A stretch of DNA of 64,000 nt, taken from positions 186,001 to 250,000 of the forward strand of contig NZ_FCNV02000008.1 of assembly GCF_001544615.1 (NCBI RefSeq), given 5' to 3'. The translations under genes and the position numbers were made by a program. Below the pieces are notes generated by a model. The model saw nothing but the letters and a program-made list of their open reading frames with translations. It did no database searches and was not told where the DNA came from. Shown here in pieces: positions 1-24,707 of this stretch; position 1 is the first letter of the stretch; every line of letters begins with the position of its first letter. This DNA is from Caballeronia concitans. Lineage in GTDB: Bacteria > Pseudomonadota > Gammaproteobacteria > Burkholderiales > Burkholderiaceae.

Positions 1-1046
1 AAGCCGCGGAATTCGAGCGTCGCATGCGGGGCGCGTTACCCCCCAATTGGCGCGATGCCGCGCATGCGCTCGTACGCGATGCCGATCATGCAAGGCAGAA
101 CATCGCGACGCGCAAGGCGTCGCAGAACGCCATCGAAGGACTCGCGCGCGTGTTGCCCGAATTGCTCGGCGGGTCGGCGGACTTGACCGGATCGAATCTC
201 ACGCGATGGAAAGACGCGACCGACGTGACTGCATCGTCCGAACGCGGCAACTATCTTCACTACGGCGTGCGTGAGTTCGGCATGAGCGCGATGATGAACG
301 GCGTCGCATTGCATCGCGGCTATCTGCCGTTCGGCGGGACCTTCCTCACGTTCTCCGACTATTCGCGCAACGCGCTGCGCATGGCCGCGCTCATGAAGAC
401 GCGCACGGTGTTCGTCTTCACGCACGATTCGATCGGTCTCGGCGAAGACGGCCCCACGCATCAGCCGATAGAACATGCCGCGAGTCTGCGCCTCATTCCA
501 GGGCTCGACGTGTGGCGTCCATGCGATGCAGTAGAAACCGCGCAAGCGTGGGTCTGCGCGGTGGAGCATGACAGGCCGGCGTGTCTGCTGTTGTCGCGTC
601 AGAACCTGCCCTTCGTGCCGCGCGATGAGGCGCAGATCGACGGCATCGAGCGCGGCGGCTATGTGCTCGCGGATTGGCCCGGCGCATGCGAGCGTGATGC
701 GCGGCGCGTGGTGTTGATCGCGACGGGATCGGAAGTCGCGCTCGCGCTCACGGCCATCGAACCGCTGAAAAACGAGGGCATTCTTGCGCGCGTGGTGTCG
801 ATGCCATCGACCACCGTGTTCGATCGTCAATGTCACGCGTGGCGCGAGCGCGTGCTGCCCGAGGGCGTGCCGCGCGTGGCGATCGAAGCGGGCGTCACGG
901 CGTTCTGGCGGCAATACGTCGGATTGAAGGGCGGCGTGGTGGGCATCGACCGCTTCGGCGAATCGGCGCCCGCGAGCGAACTCTATGCGCATTTCGGCGT
1001 GACGGTTGCGGCCGTCATCGATGAAGCACGCCGCGTCGCGGCATGA
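1..1046 (+). CDS. tkt: Transketolase, C-terminal part (5' truncated by window edge)
   Basis: Transketolase is a thiamine-diphosphate enzyme that moves two-carbon ketol units between sugar phosphates in the pentose phosphate and Calvin cycles. The reading frame is open from the window edge, so the N-terminal TPP-binding half lies outside. About 347 residues are visible. The pyrimidine-binding domain is recognised by GLGEDGPTHQPIEH, and the C-terminal domain by ATGSEVALAL and by GIDRFGESAPASELYAHFG near the end. Only 21 bases separate it from the aldolase gene, so the two are probably one transcript. The pair order tkt-fba matches the tail of proteobacterial cbb operons, so cbbT is a possible name; that is inferred from context because RuBisCO and phosphoribulokinase are not visible. 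Confidence 0.95.
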   Translation, partial: AAEFERRMRGALPPNWRDAAHALVRDADHARQNIATRKASQNAIEGLARVLPELLGGSADLTGSNLTRWKDATDVTASSERGNYLHYGVREFGMSAMMNGVALHRGYLPFGGTFLTFSDYSRNALRMAALMKTRTVFVFTHDSIGLGEDGPTHQPIEHAASLRLIPGLDVWRPCDAVETAQAWVCAVEHDRPACLLLSRQNLPFVPRDEAQIDGIERGGYVLADWPGACERDARRVVLIATGSEVALALTAIEPLKNEGILARVVSMPSTTVFDRQCHAWRERVLPEGVPRVAIEAGVTAFWRQYVGLKGGVVGIDRFGESAPASELYAHFGVTVAAVIDEARRVAA

Positions 1047-1067
1047 AAGAGAGAACGGAGAACGACG

Positions 1068-2105
1068 ATGGCATTCATCGCATTGAGGCAACTGCTGGAC
1101 CACGCAGCGGAACACAGCTACGGCGTGCCCGCGTTCAACGTCAACAACATGGAGCAGGTCCACGCGATCATGCAGGCCGCCGAGGTCACGAAAAGCCCGG
1201 TGATCTTGCAGGCGTCGGCGGGCGCGCGCAAGTATGCGGGCGAGGCGTATTTGCGGCATCTGGTGCTCGCGGCGGTCGAGGCGCATCCGGACATTCCCGT
1301 GGTGCTGCATCAGGATCACGGCGCGAGTCCCGCCGTGTGCCAGCAGGCCATTCGTTCGGGCTTCACGTCGGTGATGATGGACGGCTCGCTCTTGCCCGAT
1401 CAAAAGACGCCCGCCGATTACGACTACAACGTGGACGTGAGCCGCCGCGTGGTGGATGCGGCGCATTCGGTCGGCGTGTCGGTGGAAGGCGAGCTTGGAT
1501 GCCTGGGGTCGCTCGAGACGGGACGCGCCGGTGAGGAAGACGGTGTCGGCGCAGAGGGCGCGCTGGGTCACGATCGCCTGCTGACCGATCCCTATGAAGC
1601 GCGCGCTTTCGTCGATGCAACCGGCATCGATGCGCTGGCAATAGCGATCGGCACGTCGCATGGCGCGTACAAGTTCAGCCGCGAGCCGACGGGCGATATT
1701 CTCGCGATCGACCGCATCGCCGAGATCCATGCGCGCATACCGGATACGCATCTCGTGATGCACGGGTCGTCGTCGGTGCCGCAGGAATGGCTCGATGTGA
1801 TCCGCGAATACGGCGGCGAGATTCCATCGACGTTCGGCGTGCCGGTCGCGGAGATTCAGCGCGGCATTGCGAATGGCGTGCGCAAAGTGAATATCGACAC
1901 GGACATACGCCTTGCGATGACCGGTGCGATGCGGCGCGCGATGGCGTCGGCGAAATCGGAGTTCGATCCACGGCACGCGTTGAAGGCGGCGACAGCGGCG
2001 GCGCGCGATCTGTGCATCGACCGGTTTCGCGCGTTCGGGTGTGAAGGGCAGGCGGAGCGGATCAGGCCAATGGCGATGGAGGCGATGGCGAAGCGGTATC
2101 GGTGA
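1068..2105 (+). CDS. fba: Class II fructose-1,6-bisphosphate aldolase (Calvin-cycle type)
   Basis: This zinc-dependent aldolase joins dihydroxyacetone phosphate and glyceraldehyde 3-phosphate to fructose 1,6-bisphosphate (or the reverse). The 345-residue product has the usual length of the Calvin-cycle subtype. Visible motifs are HQDHG with metal-binding His, [22 protein letters not shown] and NIDTD for the phosphate site. The start is supported by a GGAG ribosome site just upstream. It follows the transketolase gene by 21 bases. It is the last gene of that operon, because the next gene runs the other way and ends 8 bases beyond the stop. A housekeeping glycolytic role cannot be excluded, but the tkt neighbour favours cbbA. 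Confidence 0.95.
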
Positions 2106-2113
2106 GGAAGCGC

Positions 2114-2882: not shown

Positions 2883-3431
2883 ATGCCCACCGAATCTCCA
2901 GTCGCGGAACTGGGCGCGCTCGCACCCGCATTCACGCTTCCCGCGACGGACGGAAGCACCTGGTCGCTGGACTCACTCAAGCGCTCGAACGGCCTCGTGA
3001 TCGTCTTCATGTGCAATCACTGTCCGTATGTAAAAGCGACGCTTGCGCACCTCATCCGCGACGCCATCGATCTCGAGAAAATAAACATCGGCATGGCAGG
3101 CATCAATTCGAACGATGCAAGCATCTATACCGACGATTCCTTCGACCGCATGATTGCGTTCGCAGACGAATGGCGCTTGCCGTTTCCTTATCTTCACGAT
3201 GAATCGCAGGAAGTCGCGCGCGCATACGGCGCGGCGTGCACGCCCGAATGTTTCGGCTTCGACAAGAGCATGCGTTTGCGCTATCGCGGACGTATCGATG
3301 CATCGCGCAACGAGCCGTTAAACGACGCACGCCGCGACCTCTATGAAGCGATGCGCGCCATCGCCGACGGCCACGATCCCGAAGGCGAGCAATATCCCGC
3401 GCTAGGCTGCTCGATCAAATGGAAGCGTTAG
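2883..3431 (+). CDS. Thioredoxin-like / AhpC-TSA family protein
   Basis: The 182-residue protein belongs to the thioredoxin-fold group related to peroxiredoxins (PRX-like, alkyl hydroperoxide reductase/TSA). The active-site motif is FMCNHCPYVKA with Cys44 and Cys47, a CxxC pair typical of this subgroup rather than of classical peroxiredoxins. There is no signal peptide, so a cytoplasmic thiol-redox role is likely; the substrate is unknown. A GAGCTCTC-like purine-poor leader precedes the start. Its stop overlaps by four bases with the stop of the convergent dihydropteroate-synthase-like gene, so there is no room for a terminator between them. Confidence 0.85.
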   Translation: MPTESPVAELGALAPAFTLPATDGSTWSLDSLKRSNGLVIVFMCNHCPYVKATLAHLIRDAIDLEKINIGMAGINSNDASIYTDDSFDRMIAFADEWRLPFPYLHDESQEVARAYGAACTPECFGFDKSMRLRYRGRIDASRNEPLNDARRDLYEAMRAIADGHDPEGEQYPALGCSIKWKR

Positions 3432-4828
3432 CGCTTCTTCATCGTCGAACCGGGCGCATGCCACGCGGTGAGATCCTCTTGCGGCCGGTCCACCTCGCAT
3501 CCCCAATCGAGCGGCTGATCCTGATCGAAGCGCTTGCCGAGCTGCCACGCTATCTCCGCGCGCGCGAGCTGCACGCCCATGTAGAACGCATGACCGCCAT
3601 CGGCTTCGAGCTGCAATTGCGGATAAAGCGCGAACGGGTCCGTTTCCAGCCGATGCCCGTCGCGGTTATAGACGTGTATGCCTTCCGCCGAAACCTGCAC
3701 GCGAAAATTCGGATCGCGCACGGCGGCAGCGAGCGCGTCGATTTCATCGGCGCTATATGGAAACGGGCGCTTCGCATGCAGCGCGGACAGATCGCTGCTG
3801 ATGCCCTTCGGCAGCGTCTGCGTTTCGCGCGCGGCATGCATCACGCGACGCGCGACATCGGCTTCACGCACCGCCCGTCGCGCGTGCAAACTGACCGACG
3901 TCGTCAGCACCGCCGACACGCGCAACTCGGCGGCCATGCCGAGCAGCACCGCGTTGATGCCGCTCGTGTCCGCTTCGGTGAGTTCGGTGACGTTGCCCAC
4001 GCCCATCATGATCGCGATATCCGCATGACGCTCGCGCAAACTCACATAACGCGCGATGGAAGCGGCCAGGCCGAACGGAATCGGATCGAGAATGGGATCG
4101 GCGAGAAAGGGACGATTGCGCTTTCGCATGACGTCGATGGCCGCATCGAGCGACGCCGTATCGCGCGGCTCGCGCGGCACGAGGATCGGCGTGCACGCGG
4201 CTTCATCGGCGATCCATAGCGTATCGATGTTCAGGCTCATCAGATAATCCGCGCCCGCGCGCGCACCGCGCAAGAGCTCGTCATCGAGCATCGAATCCAC
4301 GCTCACGCGATAACCCTGTTCCTTCAACATCGCGACCGCATCTTCGAGATGCGGAAACGGCGTCTCGGGCAAACAGCCGATATCGATTACATCCGCGCCC
4401 TGGCTCGCATAATCGCGCGCGCGTGCGGCAATGCCGTCGAGGTCGAGACGCGGCGCATCGACGATCTCCGCGAAAATCTCCGTCTCGTAGCGCGATAAAT
4501 CCACATGACGTGCCTCGCGCCCGAAGAACTGCGGTAAGTCCTTCACTTCTTCGGGACCGCGTTCCACCTTCACGCCATAGTGTTCCGTGAGTGCATCGAG
4601 ATCGCCGCGGCATCGTCCCGGCACGATCATGCGGCTCGTGCCTTCGGTGAGCGGCAACGCAACGCGTCGGCGGATCATGTCGGCGGTCATCAGTCCCGCA
4701 ACCTGCAAGCCTATCTCGCGCACTTCCCATGTGAATGGCGACGCCGCGCTCACGGGCGCAATGCCTTCGAGCACGCGAAAAAGACTTTGCTCGGCAAGCC
4801 GGCCGGTCAGGAAGACGATGTGTTCCAT
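3428..4828 (-). CDS. DUF6513/dihydropteroate-synthase-like protein of the H4MPT cluster
   Basis: The 466-residue protein has an N-terminal domain starting MEHIVFLTGRLAE (the domain I know as DUF6513), then a TIM-barrel segment from about residue 125 that resembles dihydropteroate synthase (GADVIDIGCLPE, YRVSVDS, and RPFLADPILDPIPFG). In bacteria and archaea that make methanopterin this protein travels with the pathway genes and is suspected to act in a pterin condensation step; the exact reaction is not shown by sequence. It is the last gene of a three-gene minus-strand unit: its start lies 22 bases inside the end of dmrB, which implies coupled translation. The C-terminal 100 residues are not recognised. 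Confidence 0.8.
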   Translation of the reverse strand: MEHIVFLTGRLAEQSLFRVLEGIAPVSAASPFTWEVREIGLQVAGLMTADMIRRRVALPLTEGTSRMIVPGRCRGDLDALTEHYGVKVERGPEEVKDLPQFFGREARHVDLSRYETEIFAEIVDAPRLDLDGIAARARDYASQGADVIDIGCLPETPFPHLEDAVAMLKEQGYRVSVDSMLDDELLRGARAGADYLMSLNIDTLWIADEAACTPILVPREPRDTASLDAAIDVMRKRNRPFLADPILDPIPFGLAASIARYVSLRERHADIAIMMGVGNVTELTEADTSGINAVLLGMAAELRVSAVLTTSVSLHARRAVREADVARRVMHAARETQTLPKGISSDLSALHAKRPFPYSADEIDALAAAVRDPNFRVQVSAEGIHVYNRDGHRLETDPFALYPQLQLEADGGHAFYMGVQLARAEIAWQLGKRFDQDQPLDWGCEVDRPQEDLTAWHAPGSTMKKR

Positions 4829-5406
4829 GCGAGCCTGAGTTGCACGAGCCGTCGATCGAGCGCGGCGCGCAGGTCATCGAGCGTATAGGCGACGGTCGTA
4901 TGTTCGATGCGCGCGAGCCGCTCGACGTTCTCGAATTCGATCGCGCGCGGCCGCACTTCGACCCATTCGTGCGGCGTCTGCGTGATGACGGAGGGCGCCG
5001 TATCGCATGCGAAGACGATGCCCGGGACGCATTGCTTGCCCGCTTGCGCGAAGAGATTCGTGGGCAGCGTATCGGAGATGCCGAACGCGCACTTCGCGAC
5101 GGTGTTGCTCGTCGCGGGCGCGATCACCACGGTGTGATAGTCGCCGTTATACAGCATGCCCACAGGCACGCTGCTCGCGCTGTTGTCGCGAAAGACCTTG
5201 AAGTGCTCACGCAGTTTATTGATGGGCCATCCGTAGAGCGGCAGCACTTCCTCGCCCGCCGATGACAGGAACAGATCGCAGCCCGGCAGGCGCAATGCAA
5301 GGTCGATCGATTCCTCGATCATGTGACCGGACCCCGTCACGCACCATGCGAAGCGCGCATCGGGCTTGAATTCATCGAGCCGGCGGGCGGGCGTCGGCTG
5401 CGTCAT
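4807..5406 (-). CDS. dmrB: Dihydromethanopterin reductase, flavoprotein (DmrB-like)
   Basis: DmrB reduces dihydromethanopterin to H4MPT using flavin, the last step of cofactor synthesis; the enzyme from Burkholderia xenovorans was characterised structurally as a flavin-containing protein cage. This 199-residue protein has the flavoprotein fold expected: CVTGSGHMIEES near the N-terminus binds the phosphate, and VVIAPATSNTVAKCAFGISD matches the flavin-binding PATxNT motif of the Dfp/archaeal flavoprotein family. Its start overlaps the regulator stop by four bases (ATGA) and its end overlaps the next gene by 22. Assignment to DmrB rather than to another flavoprotein rests on the motif plus location in the H4MPT block. 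Confidence 0.78.
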   Translation of the reverse strand: MTQPTPARRLDEFKPDARFAWCVTGSGHMIEESIDLALRLPGCDLFLSSAGEEVLPLYGWPINKLREHFKVFRDNSASSVPVGMLYNGDYHTVVIAPATSNTVAKCAFGISDTLPTNLFAQAGKQCVPGIVFACDTAPSVITQTPHEWVEVRPRAIEFENVERLARIEHTTVAYTLDDLRAALDRRLVQLRLAWNTSSS

Positions 5407-7433
5407 GCGTCGTTGGGCGCGGACGAATCATGCGACAGCCGTATATGCAGCCGATGCATCTTGCGATACAGCGTATTGCGGCTGATGCCGAGCACCTTCG
5501 CGACATTGCTCACGTTCCAGCGATGTTCGTCGAGCAGCAGCAGAACGGTCTCGCGCTCCTTGACCTGGATCGCGTTGAGCGCGCTCATTTGAGCATCGTC
5601 GGTGAGATGCGCAAGCGGCGCCGGCTGCGGGGATGGCGTGGCGCTCATCGCGCGCGCCGACGCACCGTTCAATATTTCCGGCGGCAGATGCGCGCAACGA
5701 ATCTCGGGGCCGTCGCATAGCGCGATGGCCATTTGCAGCACATGCCGCAGTTGCCGGATATTGCCGGGCCACGGATAGTTGAGCAGCGCTTGCCGCGCTT
5801 CGGCGCTCAACGTGGGCGGGTCTTCGCATTCCGTTTCGAGAATATGACCGATGAGCGCGAGCGCATCGGCACGTTCGCGCAACGGCGGCAGATTGATCTC
5901 GATACCGTTGAGCCGATAGTAAAGATCCTCGCGGAACATGCCGTTCTGCACGAGTTCGATGAGATTGCGGTGACTCGCGCTGATCAGCTGAAAGTCCACC
6001 TTCACGGTAGTTTCGGCACCGAGCGGCGTGACCTCGTGTTCTTCGAGCACGCGCAAGAGACGCGCTTGCAGCGTGAGCGGCATGTCGCCGATCTCATCGA
6101 GAAAGAGCGTGCCGCCGTTGGCCTGCACGATCTTGCCACGCCGTCCTTCACGCTGCGCGCCGGTGAACGCGCCCGCGCGATAGCCGAACAACTCACTCTC
6201 GATCAGATTCTCCGGCAACGACGCGCAATTCACCGCGACGAACGCACCGCTTCCGTTCGGGCTGATGCTATGCAGCGCATTGGCGAACACTTCCTTGCCG
6301 GTGCCCGTCTGTCCGCGCAGGATGATCGGGATCTTGCGTTGAATGACACGCGCGGCAAGCTGAATTTGCGAAGCCATGCGCGGATCGCCGAACTCCAGAT
6401 GCGAGAGCTTGTCGAGCCGCCCTTGGCCCGCCGTATCGCGCGTCTCTTTGCGGCTGGGCTTGGCGCGCGAATCGTTCATCAGGATGCGGGTGCCGCTATT
6501 CGCCGCTTCGCGCGGCGTCTGTGCAGTGAGAAAGAAACGACTGTTCGCTTTCGCGCTATACACGGTCACCGGATGAAACGAGCCACGAATGCTGCGCGCA
6601 ATCATGTCTTCGAGCGTAGCGTTGAACGCTTCCTCGATACGCTTGCCGCACAGTTCAGCGGGCGAGCGCAGGTCGAGCTGAAACAATGCGCTGCGGCTCG
6701 CGGCGAGCACGATGCCTTCATCGCTCACGGCGAGTTTGCCCGCGTGCAGCGTGCCGACGAATTCCGGCCGGCTATGAAAGTGGATCATGTTCGCGTGCCG
6801 ATAGCGCGCATCGATCAGACGATTTTCGATCATCTGCCGCGACATGCCGACGAGCACCAGCGAATGCTGCTGCAACAGCTTCGAGCGGCTCGTGACGTCG
6901 AGTACGCCGACGACCCCGCCGCGTTCGTCGAAAATCGGCGCGGCGGAACAGGTGAGGGACGTATAGCGCGGATAAAAGTGCTCGTGCTGACATACGGCGA
7001 TGCAGTCGCGCTCGATCAGGCATGTGCCCATGCCGTTCGTGCCGGCTTCGCGTTCGCTCCAGAGTGCGCCGACGCGCAGGCCATCGGCGGCGACGGCTTC
7101 GCCGAACGGCACCGACGACACCTGATGCACGATGACGCCGTCCGAATCGACGAGTACGACCGCGAGTTCGGGGTCCGCGAGTTGCTGATACAGCGTGGTC
7201 ATCTCGAGCTTCGAACACGCGATGAGATCGCTCGCAGCCTCGCGACGCTCAGTGAGTTCGCGTTGCGTGAGCACGGGCGGCATCACGAAACGGCCAGGGT
7301 CGAGATGGAATTCGGTGAGGCAGCGCGTCCACGATTGGGCGACCGAGTCACTCGCACGCCGCGAAGCCAGCGGGTTATTGACGATGTTCAGCACTTCCCG
7401 GACATGCGTATCTACGTCAGCAAGCGACGACAT
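5403..7433 (-). CDS. Sigma-54-dependent activator, GAF / AAA+ / Fis (AcoR-like)
   Basis: This 676-residue bacterial enhancer-binding protein activates RNA polymerase carrying sigma-54. An N-terminal sensory region with a GAF-like segment (about residues 70-215) is followed by a linker and the AAA+ domain with Walker A GQTGTGKE (374-381), the sigma-54 contact loop GAFTGA (421-426) and Walker B GGTLFLDEIG (440-449). A Fis-type helix-turn-helix ends the protein (WNVSNVAKVLGISRNTLYRKM, about 639-659). The order resembles AcoR-type regulators, which often sense small alcohol or aldehyde metabolites; the ligand here is unknown. It is the first gene of a unit with dmrB. Candidate -24/-12 promoters before fae and xoxF make it a good candidate regulator of formaldehyde oxidation (inference). 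Confidence 0.95.
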   Translation of the reverse strand: MSSLADVDTHVREVLNIVNNPLASRRASDSVAQSWTRCLTEFHLDPGRFVMPPVLTQRELTERREAASDLIACSKLEMTTLYQQLADPELAVVLVDSDGVIVHQVSSVPFGEAVAADGLRVGALWSEREAGTNGMGTCLIERDCIAVCQHEHFYPRYTSLTCSAAPIFDERGGVVGVLDVTSRSKLLQQHSLVLVGMSRQMIENRLIDARYRHANMIHFHSRPEFVGTLHAGKLAVSDEGIVLAASRSALFQLDLRSPAELCGKRIEEAFNATLEDMIARSIRGSFHPVTVYSAKANSRFFLTAQTPREAANSGTRILMNDSRAKPSRKETRDTAGQGRLDKLSHLEFGDPRMASQIQLAARVIQRKIPIILRGQTGTGKEVFANALHSISPNGSGAFVAVNCASLPENLIESELFGYRAGAFTGAQREGRRGKIVQANGGTLFLDEIGDMPLTLQARLLRVLEEHEVTPLGAETTVKVDFQLISASHRNLIELVQNGMFREDLYYRLNGIEINLPPLRERADALALIGHILETECEDPPTLSAEARQALLNYPWPGNIRQLRHVLQMAIALCDGPEIRCAHLPPEILNGASARAMSATPSPQPAPLAHLTDDAQMSALNAIQVKERETVLLLLDEHRWNVSNVAKVLGISRNTLYRKMHRLHIRLSHDSSAPNDA

Positions 7434-7772: not shown

Positions 7773-8243
7773 ATGGGCCGATTCGATCCGATCCGCGAAG
7801 CCGTTGGCGACGCCTTCACCGAAGAGCACAACGCGCCGATGGATATCGTTTATATCGAAGGACTCACGGGACAAACGGTGATCGGCATCGACAAGAGTGA
7901 GTTGCACGATGCGCAAACCGTGCGCATGAGCCTCATGATCGGCACGCCGTCGCTACGCGCATGCACGACGGATCACATCGACGACACCATCAATTACGCG
8001 GCGGTGCGCGAGGCCATTCACGCGCTGCTTGCATCGCACCGCGTGCAATTGCTCGAGGCGCTCGCGGAGCGCATCGCGCAAATGGTGATTGCGGAATTCG
8101 GCGCGCACTGGGTGAAGATCACGCTCGCGAAGCCCGCCAAGTTCGATGACGTCGATGCGGTCGGCGTGGTGATCGAGCGCCGGCGTTCGTGGTCCGCCAC
8201 GCCGGGCCTCGGCTGGATCGGGCGCGGATATGTACCGCAATAA
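7773..8243 (+). CDS. folB: Dihydroneopterin aldolase (FolB family)
   Basis: FolB cleaves 7,8-dihydroneopterin to 6-hydroxymethyl-dihydropterin, an early step shared by folate and methanopterin synthesis. The 156-residue protein shows the family core: MDIVYIEGLTGQTVIGI, then RMSLMIGTPSLRACTTDHIDDTINYAAV with the substrate-site Glu/Asp and Tyr region, and the C-terminal VKITLAKPAKFDDVDAVGVVIERR. It is about 30 residues longer than the Escherichia coli enzyme because of an N-terminal extension; a start at the internal Met (residue 23-24) is possible, but a GAGG site supports the longer form. It sits alone on the plus strand inside a minus-strand H4MPT block, which suggests a methanopterin-dedicated copy. 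Confidence 0.9.
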   Translation: MGRFDPIREAVGDAFTEEHNAPMDIVYIEGLTGQTVIGIDKSELHDAQTVRMSLMIGTPSLRACTTDHIDDTINYAAVREAIHALLASHRVQLLEALAERIAQMVIAEFGAHWVKITLAKPAKFDDVDAVGVVIERRRSWSATPGLGWIGRGYVPQ

Positions 8244-8654: not shown

Positions 8655-8741
8655 TCGGTGAACCTCGCTTGGTCGTTGCATACGTCGATGATGAGCGGCC
8701 GATGCTTCTGCGGTGCACCGGCCGTTTGACACGTTACATCA

Positions 8742-14296: not shown

Positions 14297-14339
14297 GGTG
14301 ATGGACTCGTATCGATTGGAATGAGGGCGGCCGTGTTCT

Positions 14340-16545: not shown

Positions 16546-16930
16546 GGCGATACCTCCCCGGGCAAGAACACACAGAGTCAGTATGCACGCGCAAAGCGGC
16601 CAGAGGCAAAGAGAAACCTGCTGCAATGCGTCAACAGCGAAGTGAAGCAAACGCTGTCTCAAACAAACAGAACATTTCGCGTATTTGACACAGTATGTAT
16701 CGCTCATCCAGGCACGCATACGCAGCAAGTCACCACGCGCAGCCGCAAACCACCCCGCGCGCAAGCGTTTTAAAAACCGGCATGGAATATGCAATTGGCG
16801 TCGATACACAAAACGTCCGGCCATGACCGGGCAATGCGAATACGCGTTACCTGCATCCAGAAGGCGCGCACGATGCAAGCCGGTAGCGTGGTCATCCCTG
16901 GGTCGGAGGCATCACCTTTCTGGAGGAGAC
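16546..16930. other. 385-base divergent promoter region, pcd / xoxF
   Basis: No gene is supported. It must hold promoters for both flanking genes. A sigma-54-like site lies at 16778-16795. CTGT-N9-ACAG occurs at about 16654-16670 and TTGACACAG at about 16685-16693; these are possible activator-binding elements but neither is established. Confidence 0.6.
16778..16795 (+). promoter_or_regulatory. Candidate sigma-54 (-24/-12) promoter of xoxF
   Basis: CCGGCATGGAATATGCAA gives the invariant GG (16779-16780), ten bases, then GC (16791-16792). Agreement with TGGCACG-N4-TTGCW is fair: CGGCATG and ATGCA. It lies about 140 bases before the xoxF start. Confidence 0.4.
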
Positions 16931-18739
16931 ATGAACTTACGCACCCTGGTTCTTGGACTGGCGGTGGTCGCGACGGCAGGCCTGAATTCGTATGTGGCGC
17001 AGGCCGATCCACAACTCGACAGCCTCATCAAGAATCCCTCGAATTGGGCAGCGCAAGCGGGCGATTATTCGAATCACCGCTATAGCACGCTCAAGCAAAT
17101 CAACGAGAACAACGTCGGCAAGCTACAGGTTGCCTGGACCATGTCCACCGGCGTGCTGCGCGGTCACGAAGGCTCGCCGCTCGTCATCGGCGATACGATG
17201 TACATTCACTCGCCGTTTCCCAACAAGGTCATCGCCATCAACCTGAAGGACCAAACCTTCATCTGGCAATACCAGCCCAAGCAGGATCAGCAAGTCATAT
17301 CGGTGATGTGCTGCGATACGGTCAACCGTGGTCTCGCTTATGGCGACGGCAAGATCTTCCTCCAGCAAGCCGACACGAAACTCGTCGCGCTCGATGCCAA
17401 GACCGGCGATGTTGTATGGAGCGTTCAAAACGGCGATCCCAAGAAAGGCGAAACCAATACCAACGCCCCACACGTATTCGGCGACAAGGTGCTGACCGGT
17501 ATCTCCGGCGGCGAATTCGGCGTGCGCGGCCGTCTCATCGCGTACAACATCAAGGACGGCAAGGAAGTCTGGAAGGCCTTTAGCACAGGCCCCGACGATG
17601 AGATGCTGCTCGACCCGCAGCAAACGATGACCTGGACCGACGGCAAGATGACGCCGATCGGCGCCGACTCGTCCATCAAGAGCTGGCAGGGCGATCAGTG
17701 GAAATACGGCGGCGGCACCACATGGGGCTGGTACGCATGGGATCCGAAGCTCAACCTTGTCTACTACGGCACGGGGAATCCCGGCACCTGGAACCCGACA
17801 CAGCGCCCCGGCGACAACAAGTGGTCCATGTCGATCTTCGCGCGCGATCTCAATACGGGCAAAGCGAAATGGGTCTATCAAATGACGCCTCACGACGAGT
17901 GGGACTATGACGGCGTCAACGAGATGATCCTCTCGGACCTGAACATCGGCGGAAAGAAGGTGCCCGCGATCGTTCACTTCGACCGCAACGGCTTCGGCTA
18001 TACGCTGAATCGTGAAACGGGCGAATTGCTTGTCGCGCAGAAGTACGACCCGGCAGTGAATTGGGCCGATAGCGTCGATCTCAAGAGCGGCTTGCCGATT
18101 CGCAATGCATCGTATTCGACGCAAAAGGCCGGTCCGGATCACAACGTCAAGGGCATCTGTCCCGCGGCGCTCGGCTCCAAGGACCAACAGCCTGCCGCGT
18201 TCGATCCGGGCACGAGTCTCTTCCTCGTACCGACCAACCACGTCTGCATGGATTACGAGCCGTTCCAGGTCGATTACGTGTCCGGTCAGCCGTTCGTCGG
18301 CGCAACGCTCTCGATGTATCCCGGTCCGAACCAAAACGGTTCGATGGGCAACTTCATCGCGTGGGATGCGGCCAAAGGCAAGATCGCATGGTCCAAGCCG
18401 GAGCGGTTCTCGGTGTGGTCCGGCGCGCTCGCAACGGCAGGCGGCATCGTGTTCTACGGCACGCTCGAAGGCTATATCAAGGCGGTTCGCATCAAGGACG
18501 GCAAGGAGCTGTGGAAGTTCAAGACGCCGTCGGGGATCATCGGCAACGTGTTCACGTATCAGTATCAGGGCAAGCAATACGTCGGCGTGTATTCGGGTAT
18601 CGGCGGCTGGGCCGGCATCGGCATGGCAGCCGGACTCGAGAAGTCGACGGAAGGTCTCGGCGCGGTCGGCGGCTATCGCGAACTCGCCAAGTACACGGCG
18701 CTCGGCGGCACGCTGTTCATCTTCGCCATCCCGAGTTGA
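16931..18739 (+). CDS. xoxF: Lanthanide-dependent PQQ methanol dehydrogenase
   Basis: XoxF oxidises methanol in the periplasm using PQQ and a lanthanide ion and reduces cytochrome XoxG. The 602-residue precursor has a signal peptide ending near YVAQA-DPQ. Recognised features are the adjacent Cys pair Cys127-Cys128 (VMCCDTV) that forms the vicinal disulphide over PQQ, tryptophan-docking GDxKWG-like repeats of an eight-bladed propeller, and [11 protein letters not shown] with catalytic Asp325 followed two residues later by Asp327. That second Asp is the hallmark of lanthanide-type XoxF; calcium-type MxaF has Ala there. The start has a GGAGGA site. It is followed by xoxG and xoxJ, and no mxaI-like small subunit is visible. 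Confidence 0.97.
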
Positions 18740-19254: not shown

Positions 19255-19296
19255 GCACGTCGACGTTAGATGACCGCGTTCACTCCCGGAGGCTTC

Positions 19297-20217
19297 ATGT
19301 CTTACCGTCAAGCCAGCGGCGCGCTGTTTCGTTCGATGTTTCGTTTGATGACCACCTGTTTTACGGCACTTGCAGCGCAAGCGGCGTTTGCGCAAGGCGC
19401 GGGCGCGCCGCCTCCCAATCTGCCGAATAACGACGGCGCGGACGGCGTGCTGCGCGTATGCGCCGATCCGAACAACATGCCGCTCTCGAACCAGAAGGGC
19501 GAAGGTTACGAGAACAAGATTGCGAGCCAGATGGCGAGTGACTTCGGCTACAAGCTCGAATACACGTATTTCCCGCAGCGCATGGGCTTCGTGCGCAATA
19601 CGCTGCGCGAAAAGGTGCCCGATACCGACCGCTATAAGTGCGATCTGATCATCGGCGTGCCGAAGGGCTATGAACTCACTGCGACCACGCGGCCGTATCT
19701 GCATTCGACATATGCAATGGTCCTGCCCAACCGACCCGAGTACGAAAGCATCAAGACGCCGGCGGACCTCATCAATCTGCCGCCCGATCAGCTCAAGAAG
19801 ATGAAGCTCGGCATCTTCGTGAAGAGTCCTGCGGTGGACTGGCTGCTGAGAAATAACCTCATCGATCAGGCTGTGTCGTATCAAGGGCAAAGCGGCGATC
19901 CGGAAGCGTTTCCCGGCGAGATGATCGAGCGCGATCTTTCGAAAGGCAATGTCGATGCCGCATTCGTTTGGGGCCCTATTGCAGGCTATTTCGTGAATCG
20001 CTCTGATAACAAGGTGAGGCTCGTGGCCTTTCCGCCTCAACCGGGCATACGCTTCGATTTCGAAATCTCGATGGGCGTGCGTTATGGCGAAAAGGCATGG
20101 CGGGACAAAGTGGACAACTGGATTGCATCGAACCAGCCGAAGATCGATCAGATTCTGACGAGCTATCAGGTTCCGTTGCTGCCGCTACAGCCGATGCAGC
20201 CGGCGCAAACGCAATGA
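19297..20217 (+). CDS. xoxJ: XoxJ periplasmic binding-protein-like
   Basis: XoxJ is a periplasmic substrate-binding-protein-like partner of XoxF, thought to help activate or mature the dehydrogenase; it does not belong to a transporter. The start at 19297 (MSYRQASG) is chosen because GGAGG lies just upstream, giving 306 residues with a signal peptide ending near AFAQG. The family-type core is VLRVCADPNNMPLSNQKGEGYENKIA, then YFPQRMGFVRNTL, KCDLIIGVPKGYE and FVWGPIAGYF. It follows xoxG by 42 bases and overlaps the next gene by four bases (ATGA), so all four genes form one coupled unit. Confidence 0.92.
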   Translation: MSYRQASGALFRSMFRLMTTCFTALAAQAAFAQGAGAPPPNLPNNDGADGVLRVCADPNNMPLSNQKGEGYENKIASQMASDFGYKLEYTYFPQRMGFVRNTLREKVPDTDRYKCDLIIGVPKGYELTATTRPYLHSTYAMVLPNRPEYESIKTPADLINLPPDQLKKMKLGIFVKSPAVDWLLRNNLIDQAVSYQGQSGDPEAFPGEMIERDLSKGNVDAAFVWGPIAGYFVNRSDNKVRLVAFPPQPGIRFDFEISMGVRYGEKAWRDKVDNWIASNQPKIDQILTSYQVPLLPLQPMQPAQTQ

Positions 20218-20981
20218 GCGCCGCGCATGTGGTGTTTCGCGCGCTCGCGACGGCGTGCGCGCTCGCCGGTGCCTTGTCGATCAATGCATTCGCCGCCGAT
20301 GCGCCGCCCGCATCGGCGGCTGCGCCGGACATTGCGCCAGCCGAGCGGTTGCTTTTCATGCAGCCGCATATGACGGGCATCGATCCTCAGACGGAACTCG
20401 ATTACGCAGTGGATTATTCGGGCCCGCCCGCCAAGGTCAGCGATACGTTGCGCGTGCTCGTGATGAGTCCCGGCAATAACAAGAACGACGCGCGCGTGAC
20501 CGATCGCACAGGCAACGTCGATGTGCCAGGCGGCCTGCCATGCAATCCCGTCATCATTTATTTTCTCGAACACGATATCGCCGAGATGCAGCAATTGACC
20601 GGTGGACAGCGCCGCTATTTCCAGCAGCGCGTTCGGCTTGCGCTTGCCGCCGGTCCTGCGGTCACGCCCGTTTCTGGCGAGACACTCGGGATCAAGAACG
20701 GCAAGGGCGTCAAGGCGCGCCAGATCGTGATTCAGCCTTACCTCAACGATCCGAATGCCGATCGCTTTGCGCAATACACCGGCAAGCGCTATACGTTCGT
20801 CATTGCCGATGACGTGCCCGGTCGCGTGCTCCTCATTCGCACCGAAGTGCCCGGCGCGGGCAATGACTTCGCGCATCCCTTGCAGAAGGAGACGATTGCT
20901 TTCCAAGGCGCGCTCAAGAATATTTCGCCGCCTGCAAGCGCGCCCGTCAAGACGGGGAACGCACCGCGCGCGAGCCGGTGA
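20214..20981 (+). CDS. Unrecognised secreted protein of the xox operon
   Basis: I do not recognise this protein. The start overlaps the xoxJ stop by four bases (ATGA), giving 255 residues with a clear signal peptide (MSAAHVVFRALATACALAGA, cleavage near AFAADAPP). The mature part has an Ala/Pro-rich N-terminus, then a conserved-looking soluble domain with MQPHMTGIDPQTELDYAVDYSG, LRVLVMSPGNNKN, LPCNPVIIYFLEHDIAEMQQLTGG, RQIVIQPYLNDPNADRF and VPGRVLLIRTEVPGAG. It contains one Cys, no haem site and no membrane helix after the signal. Coupling to xoxFGJ points to a periplasmic role in methanol oxidation, for example in enzyme maturation or metal or PQQ handling, but that is inference. Confidence 0.82.
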   Translation: MSAAHVVFRALATACALAGALSINAFAADAPPASAAAPDIAPAERLLFMQPHMTGIDPQTELDYAVDYSGPPAKVSDTLRVLVMSPGNNKNDARVTDRTGNVDVPGGLPCNPVIIYFLEHDIAEMQQLTGGQRRYFQQRVRLALAAGPAVTPVSGETLGIKNGKGVKARQIVIQPYLNDPNADRFAQYTGKRYTFVIADDVPGRVLLIRTEVPGAGNDFAHPLQKETIAFQGALKNISPPASAPVKTGNAPRASR

Positions 20982-21005: not shown

Positions 21006-21980
21006 ATGAACTTCGTCCGTTCTCTCACGCTGCGTCAGCTTCAAATCTTCGTGATCACCACGCGCTGTCCCAGCTTCGCACGCGCGGCGGAAGAGTTGCA
21101 TCTCACGCAGCCGGCGGTGTCGATGCAGATCAAGCAACTCGAAGACGCCGTCGGCTTGCCGCTATTCGAGCGCGTTGCGCGCCGGCTCGCGCTGACGGAG
21201 GCCGGCGAGAAGCTGCAGCATCATGCGAGCCGCATCCTCGGTGAAATCAAGGACGCGGAAGACGCCATGATGTCGCTCACGCAAGCGGATAGCGGATCGA
21301 TTGCGGTGAGCATAGTGAGTTCCGCAACTTACTTCGCGCCAAAATTACTCGCGCTTTATTCGCAGCAATATCCAAAAGTCGATGTGCACTTTTCGGTGGG
21401 AAATCGCGAGACCTTGCTCAGGCTCTTGCAAGATAATGCAACGGATCTCGCGATCATGGGACGCCCGCCGCCCGAGCTTGGCACGACGGCCGAGCCGCTT
21501 GCCTATCATCCGCATGTGATCGTCGCGCCGCTGTCGCATCCGTTGAGAAATGCGCGTCGCTTCGACTTGCACGAACTCACTCACGACACGTTCCTGTTGC
21601 GTGAGCCGGGATCGGGAACGCGTGCCGTCGCGGAACATGTGTTCAAGCAGAATCTCTTCGTTCCATCGCGCAGCGTCACGCTCGGAAGCAACGAGACGAT
21701 CAAGCAGGCTGTCATGGCCGGCATGGGCGTGAGCCTCATTTCACTGCATACGCTTGCGCTCGAATTGCGCACGGGCGGCATTGCGGTGCTGGATGTGAAC
21801 GGCACGCCCGTCGAAAGAACATGGCAGCTCGTGCATTCGCGCTCGAAGCAATTGTCGCCCACGTGTCTCGCGTTTCGACGCTTTCTGCTCGAACATGCCG
21901 AGCCGTTTCTGGAGCGCGAGTATGCGGAGTTCGGCTTGCTGCGGCCCAGGCGTCTCGCGGATGCGGAAAGCGTTCGATGA
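21006..21980 (+). CDS. LysR-type regulator, CbbR-like
   Basis: The 324-residue protein is a LysR-family regulator. The N-terminal winged helix is SLTLRQLQIFVITTRCPSFARAAEELHLTQPAVSMQIKQLEDAVGLPLFER; the rest is the effector-binding domain. The wording of the DNA-binding region is close to CbbR, the activator of Calvin-cycle operons, as are segments such as GNRETLLRLLQDNATDLAIMGRPP. It starts 25 bases after the unrecognised secreted protein, and its stop overlaps the start of the next gene (ATGA), so it seems built into the xox/quinoprotein unit instead of standing divergent from a target as most LysR genes do. Regulation of cbb genes or of the xox unit are both possible. Confidence 0.9.
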   Translation: MNFVRSLTLRQLQIFVITTRCPSFARAAEELHLTQPAVSMQIKQLEDAVGLPLFERVARRLALTEAGEKLQHHASRILGEIKDAEDAMMSLTQADSGSIAVSIVSSATYFAPKLLALYSQQYPKVDVHFSVGNRETLLRLLQDNATDLAIMGRPPPELGTTAEPLAYHPHVIVAPLSHPLRNARRFDLHELTHDTFLLREPGSGTRAVAEHVFKQNLFVPSRSVTLGSNETIKQAVMAGMGVSLISLHTLALELRTGGIAVLDVNGTPVERTWQLVHSRSKQLSPTCLAFRRFLLEHAEPFLEREYAEFGLLRPRRLADAESVR

Positions 21981-22912
21981 CAATAGCGTCGATGCTGCGC
22001 GCGTTGGCGTTATCGGCAATGCTTGCGTTAGGCGCCGCGAGCGCGCATGCGGAACCGGCGCTTGCGGTGCAGCAGATTACACCGGGCAATTACGCGCATC
22101 GCGGTCACGACGATGTCGCGACGCCTGCCAACGGCGGCGATATTGCCAACGTGGGCTTTATCGTCGGATCTCGCTGCGTGGCGGTCATCGACACGGGCGG
22201 CACGCTCGCCGAAGGGCGGCAACTTCGCGCCGCTATTCGACGCGTCACGCCGTTGCCTGTGTGCTATGTCATCAATACGCACATGCATCCGGATCATATC
22301 TTCGGCAATGCGGCGTTCAATGACCATCATCCGCAATACGTCGGCAGCGCGAAGCTCGCGGAAGCGGAGGCGGCGCGCGCGGACAACTACTTGCGAGCGT
22401 TGCATCGAGAGCTTGGCGCGGTGGCGGACGGCAGCGAAATCATCCCGCCGACCTTGTCGGTAGACGGAACCATGACACTCGATCTCGGCGAACGCACGCT
22501 GACGCTGCAATCATGGAAAACAGCGCATACCAACAACGACATCACGGTATACGATGAGAAGAGCGGTACGTTATGGCTCGGCGATCTGCTTTTCGTCGGA
22601 TGCATACCGGTGGTGGACGGAAGCATTGTCGGCTGGCTTGAAGATATCGCGCGCATTAAGCAGATGAATCCGCGCTATGTAGTACCGGGACATGGTCCGC
22701 TGAATGTCCCGTGGCCGCAATCGCTGGATGCGGAGGAACAGTACCTTGCCGAACTGGCGCGCGATGTGCGAGCGGCCATCAAGCGAGGCGAAACCATTCA
22801 AAAAGCCGTCGATACGATAGGCGTGAATCAGCGCGGCAAGTGGCTGCTGTACGACGTCTATCATCGCCGCAACGTGACGGCGGCCTATGCGGAACTCGAA
22901 TGGGAGCAGTAG
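21977..22912 (+). CDS. Metallo-beta-lactamase-fold hydrolase, quinoprotein relay type
   Basis: The 311-residue precursor (start overlapping the LysR stop by four bases) has a signal peptide ending near ASAHAEP. The metal site is intact: NTHMHPDHIFG supplies the HxHxDH motif, TAHTNND, LWLGDLLF and VPGHGP supply the other ligands. It fits the zinc metallohydrolases that accompany PQQ alcohol dehydrogenases and a SoxYZ-like carrier (called quinoprotein relay system). The substrate is unknown. A SoxYZ-like gene follows 17 bases downstream and a second fold member comes after that, so the three likely act together in the periplasm. Confidence 0.88.
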   Translation: MTIASMLRALALSAMLALGAASAHAEPALAVQQITPGNYAHRGHDDVATPANGGDIANVGFIVGSRCVAVIDTGGTLAEGRQLRAAIRRVTPLPVCYVINTHMHPDHIFGNAAFNDHHPQYVGSAKLAEAEAARADNYLRALHRELGAVADGSEIIPPTLSVDGTMTLDLGERTLTLQSWKTAHTNNDITVYDEKSGTLWLGDLLFVGCIPVVDGSIVGWLEDIARIKQMNPRYVVPGHGPLNVPWPQSLDAEEQYLAELARDVRAAIKRGETIQKAVDTIGVNQRGKWLLYDVYHRRNVTAAYAELEWEQ

Positions 22913-22929
22913 CGGCAGAGGAGGACATC

Positions 22930-23778
22930 ATGACGAGTCGACCCATTGCAGCGTTCGCGGCATTGTTCGTGACGCTTGCCCCCTGCATCGCGCAAGCCGC
23001 TCAGCCCGACGACGATCCCGATAAGGTCGCGCGCTGGCTCGACTTCAAGGAAGGCACGTTCAAAGGCCGCACGATCGATACACATGGCGATGCCGTCATC
23101 AAACTCGATGCACCCGCGCGCGCCGCCGATGCTGCCGTTGTTCCCATCGCGATCAATGCGCAGTTTCCACAAACGCCTTCCCGTTATATCAGCAAGGTCT
23201 ATCTATTCATCGACGAGAATCCGGAGCCGTATGCAGGCTCATTCGAATTCACGCCGGAGTCGGGACTGGCAAGCATAGAAACACGCGTGCGCGTGGAGGA
23301 CTACACGTTCATGCGCGTGATAGCCGAGACGAACGACGGACATCTCTATAGCGCAGTACGTTTCGTCAAGGCATCGGGCGGCTGTTCGGCTCCTGCAGGC
23401 AAGGACGATGAAGCGGGCGAACGCGAGGCCGGTGCCGTGCGTCTTCAGGCCGAAGGCAAGCCCGCAGCGGGCAAGCCCGAACTCGCTCAATTGATGGTGC
23501 GTCACCCGAACCGAACCGGCATGGCGATGAATCAGGTCACGCGCAATTACGCTACGGCCTATTTCGTGCGCAAGGTTGCCGTGACATATGCAGGCAAGCC
23601 GGTGATGACCGCGAACGTGAACTTTTCGATCAGCGAGAACCCGAATTTCCGCTTCTATTTCGTGCCGAGCGGAAGCGGTGAATTGAAGGCGCATATCGAG
23701 GATACGAAGAACAAGAACTTCGAAGGCGTGGTCGCGATCGACGCGCAATCGGCCCCGCAAACATCGGCGATGAAATGA
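22930..23778 (+). CDS. SoxYZ-like carrier protein associated with quinoprotein dehydrogenases
   Basis: This 282-residue exported protein (signal peptide ending near IAQAAQP) fuses a SoxY-like and a SoxZ-like domain. In sulphur oxidation SoxY carries intermediates on a Cys in a GGCGG tail. Here the corresponding tail is at the domain junction: KASGGCSAPAGKDD, with one Cys at about residue 155. The second half (LAQLMVRHPNRTGMAMN ... FSISENPNFRFYFVPSGSGELKAHIEDTKN) is SoxZ-like. No other sox genes are present, so the load is probably not sulphur; families of this type sit beside methanol/ethanol quinoproteins. A GAGG site precedes the start, and the next gene overlaps by four bases. Confidence 0.88.
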   Translation: MTSRPIAAFAALFVTLAPCIAQAAQPDDDPDKVARWLDFKEGTFKGRTIDTHGDAVIKLDAPARAADAAVVPIAINAQFPQTPSRYISKVYLFIDENPEPYAGSFEFTPESGLASIETRVRVEDYTFMRVIAETNDGHLYSAVRFVKASGGCSAPAGKDDEAGEREAGAVRLQAEGKPAAGKPELAQLMVRHPNRTGMAMNQVTRNYATAYFVRKVAVTYAGKPVMTANVNFSISENPNFRFYFVPSGSGELKAHIEDTKNKNFEGVVAIDAQSAPQTSAMK

Positions 23779-24707
23779 CGCCACGTTGCGTGAGAGCCTT
23801 CATAGGCGCGCTGCTGTTCGCGTTCGTCGATGTGGCGATGGCCGCGCTCGCCGGCATGCCTGCGCCCGTCGCTATCGCGCCGGGCGTGTATGCGTTCATC
23901 GGCACCGCCGATGCGGTTGCGCCCGCGAATCACGGCATCGTCGCGAACAATGGCTTTATCGTGGGGCCGAGCGGCGTGACGGTGATCGATACGGGGCCGT
24001 CTTATCGCTATGGACGCGCGATGATCGAAGCCATTCGCAAGGTCACGCCTTTGCCGGTGAAGCTCGTCATCATCACGCATCAGGCGCCGGAGTTCGTATT
24101 CGGCGCGGCTGCATTTAGGGATCGCGATGTGCCCATACTCGCGCACGCTCGCACTGCGCAACTGATTAAAGAGCGATGCTCGATCTGTCTCGCGAACTTG
24201 CGCAAGACGCTGGGCGAAGACGAGATGGCCGGATCGCGCGTGACCGTGCCGGATCGCACGGTCAATGGCACGACGGAAATCGAAAGCGGCGGACGCAAGC
24301 TGCAATTGCTGCATTTCGGTCCGGCCAGCACGCCCGGCGATCTTGCGGTGCTCGATACGCAAACGGGTGTGTTGTTCGCGGGCAGTCTCGTTTCGAATGG
24401 ACGCATTCCCGAACTGCGCAACGAGCACATTCCCGGCTGGCTCAGCGCGCTGGACAATTTGCGCGCGCTGGATCTCACGGCCGTCGTGCCCGCGTTCGGC
24501 GCGCCGCTGAATGGCGACGACGTCATGCAGACAGGCGTTTATCTGCGCGAACTGGATGCGTCGGTCAAGCGCGCTTACAAGAGCGGCGTGGGTCTTACCG
24601 ATGCGATGCATTCGGTGCAAGTCCCCGCCTTTAGCGGCTATAAGCTCTATGCCATTGCCCAGCCGCAGAACGTGCAGCGGCTTTATCTTCAGTTGGAGAA
24701 GCAATAG
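23775..24707 (+). CDS. Metallo-beta-lactamase-fold protein with degenerate metal site
   Basis: The 310-residue precursor has a signal peptide (MTPRCVRAFIGALLFAFVDV) and aligns along its length with the hydrolase at 21977. At each metal-ligand position it differs: THMHPDHIFG becomes THQAPEFVFG, TAHTNND becomes PASTPGD, LGDLLF becomes AGSLVS, and VPGHGP becomes VPAFGA. Only the first His is kept. It is therefore probably not a standard metallohydrolase and may be a pseudoenzyme or partner of the neighbour, possibly a recognised subgroup (quinoprotein relay protein 1). Two Cys sit close together (ERCSICLANL). The start overlaps the SoxYZ-like stop by four bases, so expression is coupled. Confidence 0.85.
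   Translation: MTPRCVRAFIGALLFAFVDVAMAALAGMPAPVAIAPGVYAFIGTADAVAPANHGIVANNGFIVGPSGVTVIDTGPSYRYGRAMIEAIRKVTPLPVKLVIITHQAPEFVFGAAAFRDRDVPILAHARTAQLIKERCSICLANLRKTLGEDEMAGSRVTVPDRTVNGTTEIESGGRKLQLLHFGPASTPGDLAVLDTQTGVLFAGSLVSNGRIPELRNEHIPGWLSALDNLRALDLTAVVPAFGAPLNGDDVMQTGVYLRELDASVKRAYKSGVGLTDAMHSVQVPAFSGYKLYAIAQPQNVQRLYLQLEKQ

Follow-up and report, generated by a model that had tools for sequence, protein, structure and literature searches.

A gene island of Caballeronia concitans joins lanthanide-type methanol oxidation to the Calvin cycle and carries cbbR in its xox unit, suggesting a regulatory link between the two

The stretch of DNA analysed here (the window) comprises 64,000 nucleotides of Caballeronia concitans (assembly GCF_001544615.1; 6.17 Mb in 47 contigs, 99.97% complete) and corresponds to C22:186001-250000, C22 being contig NZ_FCNV02000008.1. 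Its first part belongs to an island of about 45 kb (approximately C22:165557-210707), which is made up of a stretch upstream of the window, the window's genes for formaldehyde oxidation on tetrahydromethanopterin (H4MPT) and a unit around the lanthanide-type methanol dehydrogenase gene xoxF (the xox unit), inside which a gene for the Calvin-cycle regulator CbbR is found. Positions given without a contig are those of the window. The Calvin-cycle (cbb) operon, including the genes for ribulose-1,5-bisphosphate carboxylase/oxygenase (RuBisCO), begins directly upstream of position 1 and leads into a transketolase-aldolase (tkt-fba) pair:

C22 ~180065-181555, colinear with tkt-fba: cbbL, RuBisCO large subunit (PRK04208, 786.9 bits)
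C22:181581-181997, colinear with tkt-fba: cbbS, RuBisCO small subunit (Pfam RuBisCO_small)
C22:182036-182947, colinear with tkt-fba: cbbX (TIGR02880, above the cut-off)
C22:182960-184054, colinear with tkt-fba: cbbF, class 1 fructose-1,6-bisphosphatase
C22:184099-184971, colinear with tkt-fba: cbbP, phosphoribulokinase (499.8 bits against a cut-off of 362)
1-1046, plus strand: cbbT, 3' part of the transketolase gene, which starts at C22:184992, 1009 bases before position 1 (C-terminal half at 24-1046, TIGR00232, 401.6 bits; N-terminal half before position 1, Pfam PF00456)
1068-2105, plus strand: cbbA, class II fructose-bisphosphate aldolase, final gene of the cbb operon (TIGR01521, 591.2 bits against a cut-off of 496.35)

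The original prediction, made from the letters of the window, had taken the tkt-fba pair to be of the cbb type and pointed to the region upstream as the place to look for cbbL, cbbS and cbbP. The pair is indeed the tail of a Calvin-cycle operon, in which the genes for both RuBisCO subunits, CbbX, fructose-bisphosphatase and phosphoribulokinase precede it colinearly, and its assignment as an ordinary glycolytic pair was rejected on the same grounds. A genome devoid of RuBisCO or phosphoribulokinase, which had been named as evidence against the pathway, is excluded, as both are present; the only RuBisCO match of the genome is the one in this operon. Further upstream follow mfn-type genes, FhcB-A-D-C, cytochrome b561 and pqqB-C-D-E, for the synthesis of pyrroloquinoline quinone (PQQ), with pqqB assigned from its place and from homology in relatives, without a domain scan. 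The short pqqA gene (24 residues) is divergent to cbbL. The xox unit and the elements considered in its regulation are the following:

5403-7433, minus strand: sigma-54-dependent activator with a GAF domain (Sigma54_activat, GAF and HTH_8)
16677-16703, plus strand: conserved 27-nt element TCGCGTATTTGACACAGTATGTATCGC, candidate activator site of xoxF
16778-16793, plus strand: sigma-54-type -24/-12 site CGGCATGGAATATGCA ahead of xoxF
16931-18739, plus strand: xoxF, lanthanide-type methanol dehydrogenase, 602 amino acids
18841-19254, plus strand: xoxG by position, c-type cytochrome with one CxxCH
19270-20217, plus strand: xoxJ, periplasmic binding protein (TIGR03871, above the cut-off)
20214-20981, plus strand: conserved xox-unit protein, no Pfam match (searched as a longer open reading frame (ORF) from 20097)
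21006-21980, plus strand: cbbR, with a predicted target in the cbbL operator at C22:179902-179945, 27 kb away
21821-22912 (ORF bounds), plus strand: quinoprotein relay metallohydrolase 2
22711-23778 (ORF bounds), plus strand: SoxYZ-like carrier
23775-24707, plus strand: quinoprotein relay metallohydrolase, second copy

The nearest solved structures of the window's XoxF are the XoxF structures 6dam and 6oc5, and its HDEWDYDG motif contains, as in 6dam, the D-x-D pattern that we take to be the lanthanide mark of XoxF. The expected neighbours, a cytochrome and XoxJ, accompany it, so that the lanthanide methanol dehydrogenase operon that had been predicted stands; the cytochrome scores under the cut-offs of the methanol-cytochrome models. 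The two metallohydrolases and the SoxYZ-like carrier complete the stretch up to 24707. Between the cbb operon and the xox unit lie the genes for H4MPT synthesis and use:

3428-4828, minus strand: dihydropteroate-synthase-like protein (DUF6513) of the H4MPT cluster
4807-5406, minus strand: flavoprotein (AfpA / dihydromethanopterin reductase-like)
7773-8243, plus strand: FolB-like aldolase
8742-9410 (ORF bounds), minus strand: fae, formaldehyde-activating enzyme (251.6 bits against a cut-off of 118.05)
9442-10356, minus strand: CitG-family protein of the H4MPT cluster
10274-11707 (ORF bounds, true start probably further in), minus strand: MptN-type glutamate ligase
11224-12948 (ORF bounds), minus strand: mch, methenyl-H4MPT cyclohydrolase (388.0 bits against a cut-off of 228.8)
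12207-13370, minus strand: ATP-grasp protein of the H4MPT cluster
13367-14497 (ORF bounds), minus strand: mtdB, methylene-H4MPT dehydrogenase (Pfam Mpt_N)
14340-15635 (ORF bounds), minus strand: beta-ribofuranosylaminobenzene 5'-phosphate (RFAP) synthase
16171-16560, minus strand: pterin-4a-carbinolamine dehydratase

The earlier claim that all core H4MPT enzymes lie within 25 kb holds for Fae, MtdB and Mch and fails for FhcA, B, C and D, which are encoded at C22:169420-174144, 11.9-16.6 kb ahead of position 1 in the same island. Homologues of H4MPT biosynthesis proteins were likewise found where they had been predicted (RFAP synthase, MptN-type ligase, FolB, the dihydropteroate-synthase-like protein, the flavoprotein and the pterin dehydratase), several of them under curated cut-offs. 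A formate dehydrogenase alpha subunit is encoded on contig C19 (938.6 bits against a cut-off of 666.25), so that XoxF, formate dehydrogenase, RuBisCO and phosphoribulokinase all occur in one genome. The gene families therefore support a route from methanol to CO2 with refixation by the Calvin cycle, as had been proposed, from which growth on methanol and the passage of label through the cycle would be expected.

The presence of a CbbR-like regulator inside the xox unit is borne out by the LysR gene at 21006-21980, which matches the NCBIfam CbbR model NF045990 at 290.9 bits; the curated cut-off of 450 is reached by no gene of this genome, and the name of the model suggests CbbR of the Rhodobacter type. 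The protein is 61-67% identical to other Burkholderiaceae CbbRs encoded divergently to cbbL or beside cbbF-cbbP (48% for G100:C41), and about 65% identical to matched pieces on the Cupriavidus necator plasmid pHG1. A 39-protein tree, rooted on paralogues and including 32 CbbRs and seven paralogues as its only LysR families, separates the CbbRs from the paralogues at 100/100 and gathers the xox-unit CbbRs (11 rows) in a single clade (100/98). The sister of this clade (97/89) consists of the CbbRs of Paraburkholderia hiiakae, P. oxyphila and P. sp. Tr-20389, followed (87/68, not firm) by those of G004, G138 and Pandoraea, all divergent to cbbL. Since these nearest neighbours sit divergent to cbbL or beside cbb genes, the place of cbbR inside the xox unit is most simply read as derived. 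In the window cbbR is not divergent from the cbb operon, lying 27 kb from it on the same strand, and pqqA takes the divergent position instead. The genome's second CbbR-like gene, on contig C16, groups with the paralogues, and the idea that the xox-unit gene is this second gene or its kin was rejected, as the former falls among the CbbRs.

The association between the regulator and the operon is conserved across relatives. Within 150 genomes of the family, cbbL (at least 86% identity) and the xox-unit CbbR (at least 77%) occur in 25 each, and these are the same 25 genomes, of which 23 also have a close fae. A single contig holds both genes in 21 of these genomes, at a distance of 24.1-29.2 kb in 19 and of 15.4-16.1 kb in G059 and G088, and are split by the assembly onto different contigs in the remaining four; the identity of the two sets and the shared contigs argue that the co-occurrence is not due to chance. 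Two more genomes, G004 and G138, have a cbbL at 79-80% and a divergent CbbR. The core gene order is kept in 12 stretches, namely the window, nine full islands from relatives and the reduced islands of G059 and G088, and the sigma-54 activator is present in all 12, while the metallohydrolase-SoxYZ tail is absent from the stretch in G047, G097, G065, G104 and G114. In G059 and G088 an MtdB homologue is all that is left of the H4MPT genes, and xox, cbbR, cbb and pqq remain together, which is why the cbb genes are considered to go with methanol oxidation rather than with H4MPT. In these two genomes (L043-L045 and L053-L054) the MtdB homologue (71%), an amino-acid-kinase gene, orf152 and the sigma-54 activator lie beside cbb and xox, and cbbA is relocated behind cbbR. 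A scan of 80 named loci among the matches listed, which is not a full census, gave 19 carriers at 78-91% identity, belonging to Caballeronia, Paraburkholderia, one Burkholderia sp. and 'Candidatus Burkholderia verschuerenii'. Within these 19, xoxF is just upstream of cbbR in 18, the nineteenth being truncated by a contig end, and RuBisCO is present in all 18 of the genomes examined.

Natural losses show the same association. Of 58 Caballeronia genomes, 37 have cbbR, cbbL and xoxF, eight have xoxF alone and 12 have none of them at the threshold used, with G186, which holds an xoxF fragment, counted among the 12. As cbbR accompanies cbbL in 37 of 37 genomes and is found in one of the nine xoxF-bearing genomes without cbbL, it follows cbbL and not xoxF. 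G081, G116, G197 and G199 lack only cbbR from an otherwise present xox unit; in G178 the ORF preceding the place of cbbR is split in two, the stretch of G202 is cut by a contig end, and G182, another of the eight xoxF-only genomes, has a piece of cbbL in an incomplete stretch. On the XoxF tree (32 rows, G203 left out), four changes of cbbL and five of cbbR are counted. Fisher's test over the 46 xoxF-bearing genomes gives 3e-8, a figure that ignores kinship and is not taken as a probability. That genomes of the G081 type represent the state before arrival of the cbb operon was rejected, as the XoxF tree nests them; moreover, in G081 and G116, the two inspected, the space between DUF6513 and pqqA still contains the promoter region that precedes pqqA in islands with cbb, and no such space exists in Azoarcus. 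These genomes therefore appear to have lost the operon. Broken parts of the xox unit occur in some smaller Caballeronia genomes (3.9-5.1 Mb), at L159 (G203), L161 (G174) and L158 (G178).

The cbbL promoter contains, at -163, a 44-nt motif consisting of TAAGCGATCGCTTA and then AAGAAATTCGTGAATTC, which is the predicted CbbR operator. In each of the 12 islands, a profile trained on the others scores highest at cbbL (41.3-63.0 bits, runner-up at most 3.9), a result weakened by the choice of the training sites as best matches to the window operator inside cbbL promoters and by near twins that stay in the leave-one-out sets. Outside the training set, the operator scores 56.8 at cbbL of Paraburkholderia phymatum, and the motif is the best of each 19-kb stretch around three canonical cbbR-cbbL gaps (15.0, 16.9 and 17.1 bits). 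At the 19 named xox-unit loci holding cbbR without cbbL, no site above 0 was found at either xoxF or cbbR. Regulation of xoxF by CbbR through the cbbL motif was accordingly rejected, as there is no site at xoxF and eight of the 46 xoxF-bearing Caballeronia genomes have no CbbR. In G059 (3.9 bits) and G088 (-0.2), the relocated cbbA behind cbbR is preceded at 0.7-0.8 kb by a weak site of the CbbR type.

From the perspective of sigma-54 control, the 450 bp ahead of xoxF contain a GGCA-N7-TGC site in 13 of 13 stretches, those ahead of fhcB in 12 of 12 and those ahead of pqqA in 12 of 12 where PqqA is recognised (the pattern used recognised none in G065 and G104), compared with 6.4% of 20,000 random 450-bp stretches; these promoters are related by descent, and the counts therefore measure conservation and not independent hits, which lessens their weight. 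The predicted regulon combines such -24/-12 sites with an activator that has a sigma-54 interaction domain. Ahead of xoxF, the 27-nt element is kept in 13 of 13 stretches, with 22-27 of its 27 positions identical to the reference form. Inspection by eye gave a weak GACAC/GTGTC half-site, and no further activator motif common to xoxF and pqqA was found; scans of the xox unit for terminators and sigma-70 promoters gave numbers near the shuffle level (9 vs 8.0 and 2 vs 3.4, respectively). The cbbR gene of the window starts 24 bases past the preceding gene, and the gap before cbbR, by match positions, is below 142 bp in 10 of the 12 islands; among the 18 named loci listed, it is below 100 bp in 11 and 188-203 bp in two. 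A transcript shared by xoxF and cbbR is thus likely in most islands, and doubtful where the gap exceeds 400 bp.

Published data from a relative bear on this control. On plasmid pBPHY01 of P. phymatum the island is present, and the published gene numbers fit the island order (Bphy_6497 for RuBisCO, Bphy_6505 for FhcA and Bphy_6506 for FhcD), the record itself being without locus tags. In nodules of this species, passages of PMC5748707 report RuBisCO to be up, together with FhcA (1.9 log2) and FhcD (3.9 log2), and Table 3 of PMC5979394 gives FhcA at -3.5 log2 in nodules of an rpoN mutant. By analogy, these data support sigma-54 dependence of fhcA and induction of island genes in nodules.

These observations can be brought together in a model that we consider somewhat more probable than its competitors combined, in which the island serves methanol-fed carbon fixation under a two-step relay. 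XoxF, with XoxG and XoxJ, would oxidise methanol with PQQ made from the island's pqqA and pqqBCDE; formaldehyde would be converted to formate on H4MPT through Fae, MtdB, Mch and Fhc; formate dehydrogenase, encoded on another contig, would free CO2, and the cbb operon would fix it again. As a putative master activator, the island's sigma-54 activator would act through sigma-54 promoters to turn on the xox unit, pqqA and the run of fhc(-pqqBCDE) genes, and CbbR made from the xox unit would then activate cbbLSXFPTA from the operator 27 kb away, so that carbon fixation would become an output of methanol oxidation. The position of a switch gene for CO2 fixation in the gene row of the methanol enzyme points to methanol itself as the likely signal that turns on carbon fixation. 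We infer the inducer, the co-transcription of cbbR with xoxF, the binding of activator and CbbR to their sites and net growth on methanol from the arrangement of genes and sites. A broader account, which we hold tentatively and at less than even chances, is that the Calvin cycle of Caballeronia and Paraburkholderia was rewired from hydrogen/CO2 autotrophy to methylotrophy: the divergent cbbR-cbb arrangement would have been split, with cbb moving into the H4MPT run and cbbR into the methanol dehydrogenase operon, and one methanol-responsive sigma-54 activator would drive oxidation, cofactor supply and, via the CbbR relay, CO2 fixation, the system being on in plant tissue.

Several observations weigh against the relay or the coherence of the island. 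With respect to the operator, the plain match count is under the shuffle maximum in G100:C41 (23 vs 24 of 44), equal to it in G088 (25 vs 25) and only one or two above it in G059 (25 vs 24), G004 and G114 (26 vs 24), G097 (28 vs 26) and G138 (27 vs 25), and only five of 23 other named loci (L090-L112) have a best site above 0 within 130 bases of cbbR. With respect to the losses, G174 retains cbbR without cbbL (its xoxF carries stops), and G203, one of the eight xoxF-only genomes, holds broken pieces of cbbR and xoxF; on supported branches the tree yields only three independent pairs, with CbbR changing in the same direction in an average of 2.7 of them (sign test, p 0.25), so that the direction of loss is consistent and the number of events too small for significance. 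The island is also incomplete in places, cbbT being missing in G040 and both cbbT and cbbA in P. phymatum. Finally, xoxF and the cbb genes are not listed as rpoN-dependent in the tables examined, and effects of rpoN in nodules can be indirect.

The chief alternative, which we regard as rather unlikely though by no means negligible, keeps the pathway and dispenses with the relay: cbbR would merely be placed in the xox unit, with a promoter of its own, and would sense Calvin-cycle metabolites, as CbbR proteins usually do. Its joint loss with cbbL shows only that CbbR serves cbb, and the gap before cbbR is 510-652 bp in G104 and G124 (two of 12 islands) and 419-690 bp in five of the 18 named loci, where cbbR may have its own promoter. 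The short gaps in most islands and loci speak for the relay, as do the constancy of the place of cbbR from Caballeronia to the G059/G088 lineage and the lack of a CbbR-type operator before cbbR in all 19 named loci, although in the divergent arrangement the operator adjoins cbbR. A more distant alternative is that the island mainly burns or detoxifies formaldehyde arising from methylated compounds of plants (betaine, choline, methoxy groups), RuBisCO being a sink for electrons and CO2 rather than a means of growth on methanol. Genes for a glutathione-independent formaldehyde dehydrogenase, a GbdR-like regulator and a glycine-betaine-monooxygenase-like protein adjoin the island, and some island genes are induced in P. 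phymatum nodules, both of which would fit; we nevertheless judge it improbable, as the island holds a lanthanide-type methanol dehydrogenase unit with PQQ genes, and xox, pqq, cbbR and cbb still occur together in G059 and G088, where the H4MPT genes are lost apart from the MtdB homologue. Least credible of all is the assimilation of methanol carbon by the serine cycle, with the cbb operon serving hydrogen or formate autotrophy. H4MPT and XoxF are the usual dissimilatory half of serine-cycle methylotrophs, and a serine cycle fed from formate requires formate-tetrahydrofolate ligase; no member of that family was found in the genome, other serine-cycle genes and those of the ribulose monophosphate pathway not having been searched, and cbb shares a contig with the xox-unit cbbR in most genomes that have both (21 of 25).

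If methanol-fed carbon fixation under the two-step relay is the correct reading, many beta-proteobacteria that associate with plants, P. phymatum and other nodule formers among them, are predicted to live on plant methanol via the Calvin cycle with the help of rare earths, and this would offer a possible reason for the induction of RuBisCO in nodules. The island would also be a clean case of a regulator that changes operon and keeps its distant target, with natural losses as controls, and the regulatory model is amenable to single gene removals.

The pathway itself has precedents. In Bradyrhizobium and Sinorhizobium, growth, transcript, enzyme and 13C data presented in PMC12628762 establish a XoxF-CBB pathway (CBB, Calvin-Benson-Bassham cycle), encoded in Sinorhizobium meliloti by a 28.5-kb cluster on pSymB. 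It shares with the present system methanol oxidation by XoxF, formate dehydrogenase, type IC RuBisCO and the adjacency of PQQ and cbb genes, which lie on a megaplasmid there. According to the same paper, formaldehyde is oxidised on glutathione in these rhizobia, whereas the island encodes H4MPT enzymes. The S. meliloti cluster has a LysR gene (35% identical to the window CbbR) beside the cbb genes, divergent from cbbF and before pqqA, unlike the cbbR inside the xox unit and the pqqA divergent to cbbL found here. A commentary (PMC12997859) states that methylotrophs rarely have the CBB cycle as their only route of assimilation and mentions Burkholderia methylotrophy genes on symbiotic megaplasmids, citing a 2009 review. 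A paper that names both Caballeronia and methanol dehydrogenase (PMC8247643) reports an mxaF gene and does not contain the word RuBisCO; PMC8305402 gave no passage relevant to these genes. The literature search found no paper combining xoxF, Calvin and Paraburkholderia and, in the texts covered, passages of PMC5023235 among them, no account of a cbbR gene within a xox operon, the 2009 review being outside its coverage. The XoxF-CBB pathway is therefore already known, and the H4MPT version with cbbR in the xox unit is new as far as this search reaches.

Other arrangements resemble parts of the island. The pAZKH island of Azoarcus sp. KH32C has the same H4MPT genes, a sigma-54 activator (56%), xoxF-G-J, the metallohydrolases and SoxYZ, with neither a cbb nor a cbbR match at 1e-8 across the 37.8 kb covered, and its DUF6513 and DUF447 genes overlap where Caballeronia has the cbb operon. 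The small protein encoded at 8274-8732 of the window, which has no Pfam match, has a homologue (50% over 90 residues, E 7e-25) in the Azoarcus xox unit (L175:21948-22298), where it occupies the place of cbbR. Canonical divergent cbbR-cbbL operons (G004, G138, G100:C41 and Pandoraea terrae L093) share a CbbR of 48-67% identity, the same operator motif by profile and the order cbbL-S-X..F-P-T; unlike in the window, their cbbR is divergent from cbbL and the stretches around them have no xox or H4MPT match. P. hiiakae, P. oxyphila and P. sp. Tr-20389 have the sister CbbR, H4MPT genes and, in two of the three stretches, the sigma-54 activator, with cbbR placed before the H4MPT genes on the same strand. 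At these loci (L090, 4529-20926; L091; L105), CbbR, cbbF and phosphoribulokinase genes stand beside the H4MPT genes, with a cbbS remnant in L090. In P. hiiakae and P. oxyphila cbbF-cbbP remain and the genome has no RuBisCO match, which leaves a phosphoribulokinase without RuBisCO.

Minor features were also recorded in and around the island. A PIN-domain protein and a small partner gene are encoded between cbbA and a redoxin gene (2114-2793); among 17 other stretches, the PIN gene is found only in G124. A second, divergent Fae homologue is encoded elsewhere in the genome (G000:C35:365539-365979, 139.5 bits), and 14 of 40 Fae-bearing genomes of the family hold solely such divergent copies. Beside the island, positions 27401-42000 encode a glutathione-independent formaldehyde dehydrogenase (27401-28831, above the cut-off), GbdR-like and glycine-betaine-monooxygenase-like proteins (below the cut-off), an old-yellow-enzyme-type oxidoreductase and a protein like the alpha subunit of electron-transfer flavoprotein; this is probably a betaine demethylation cluster and would constitute a second source of formaldehyde.

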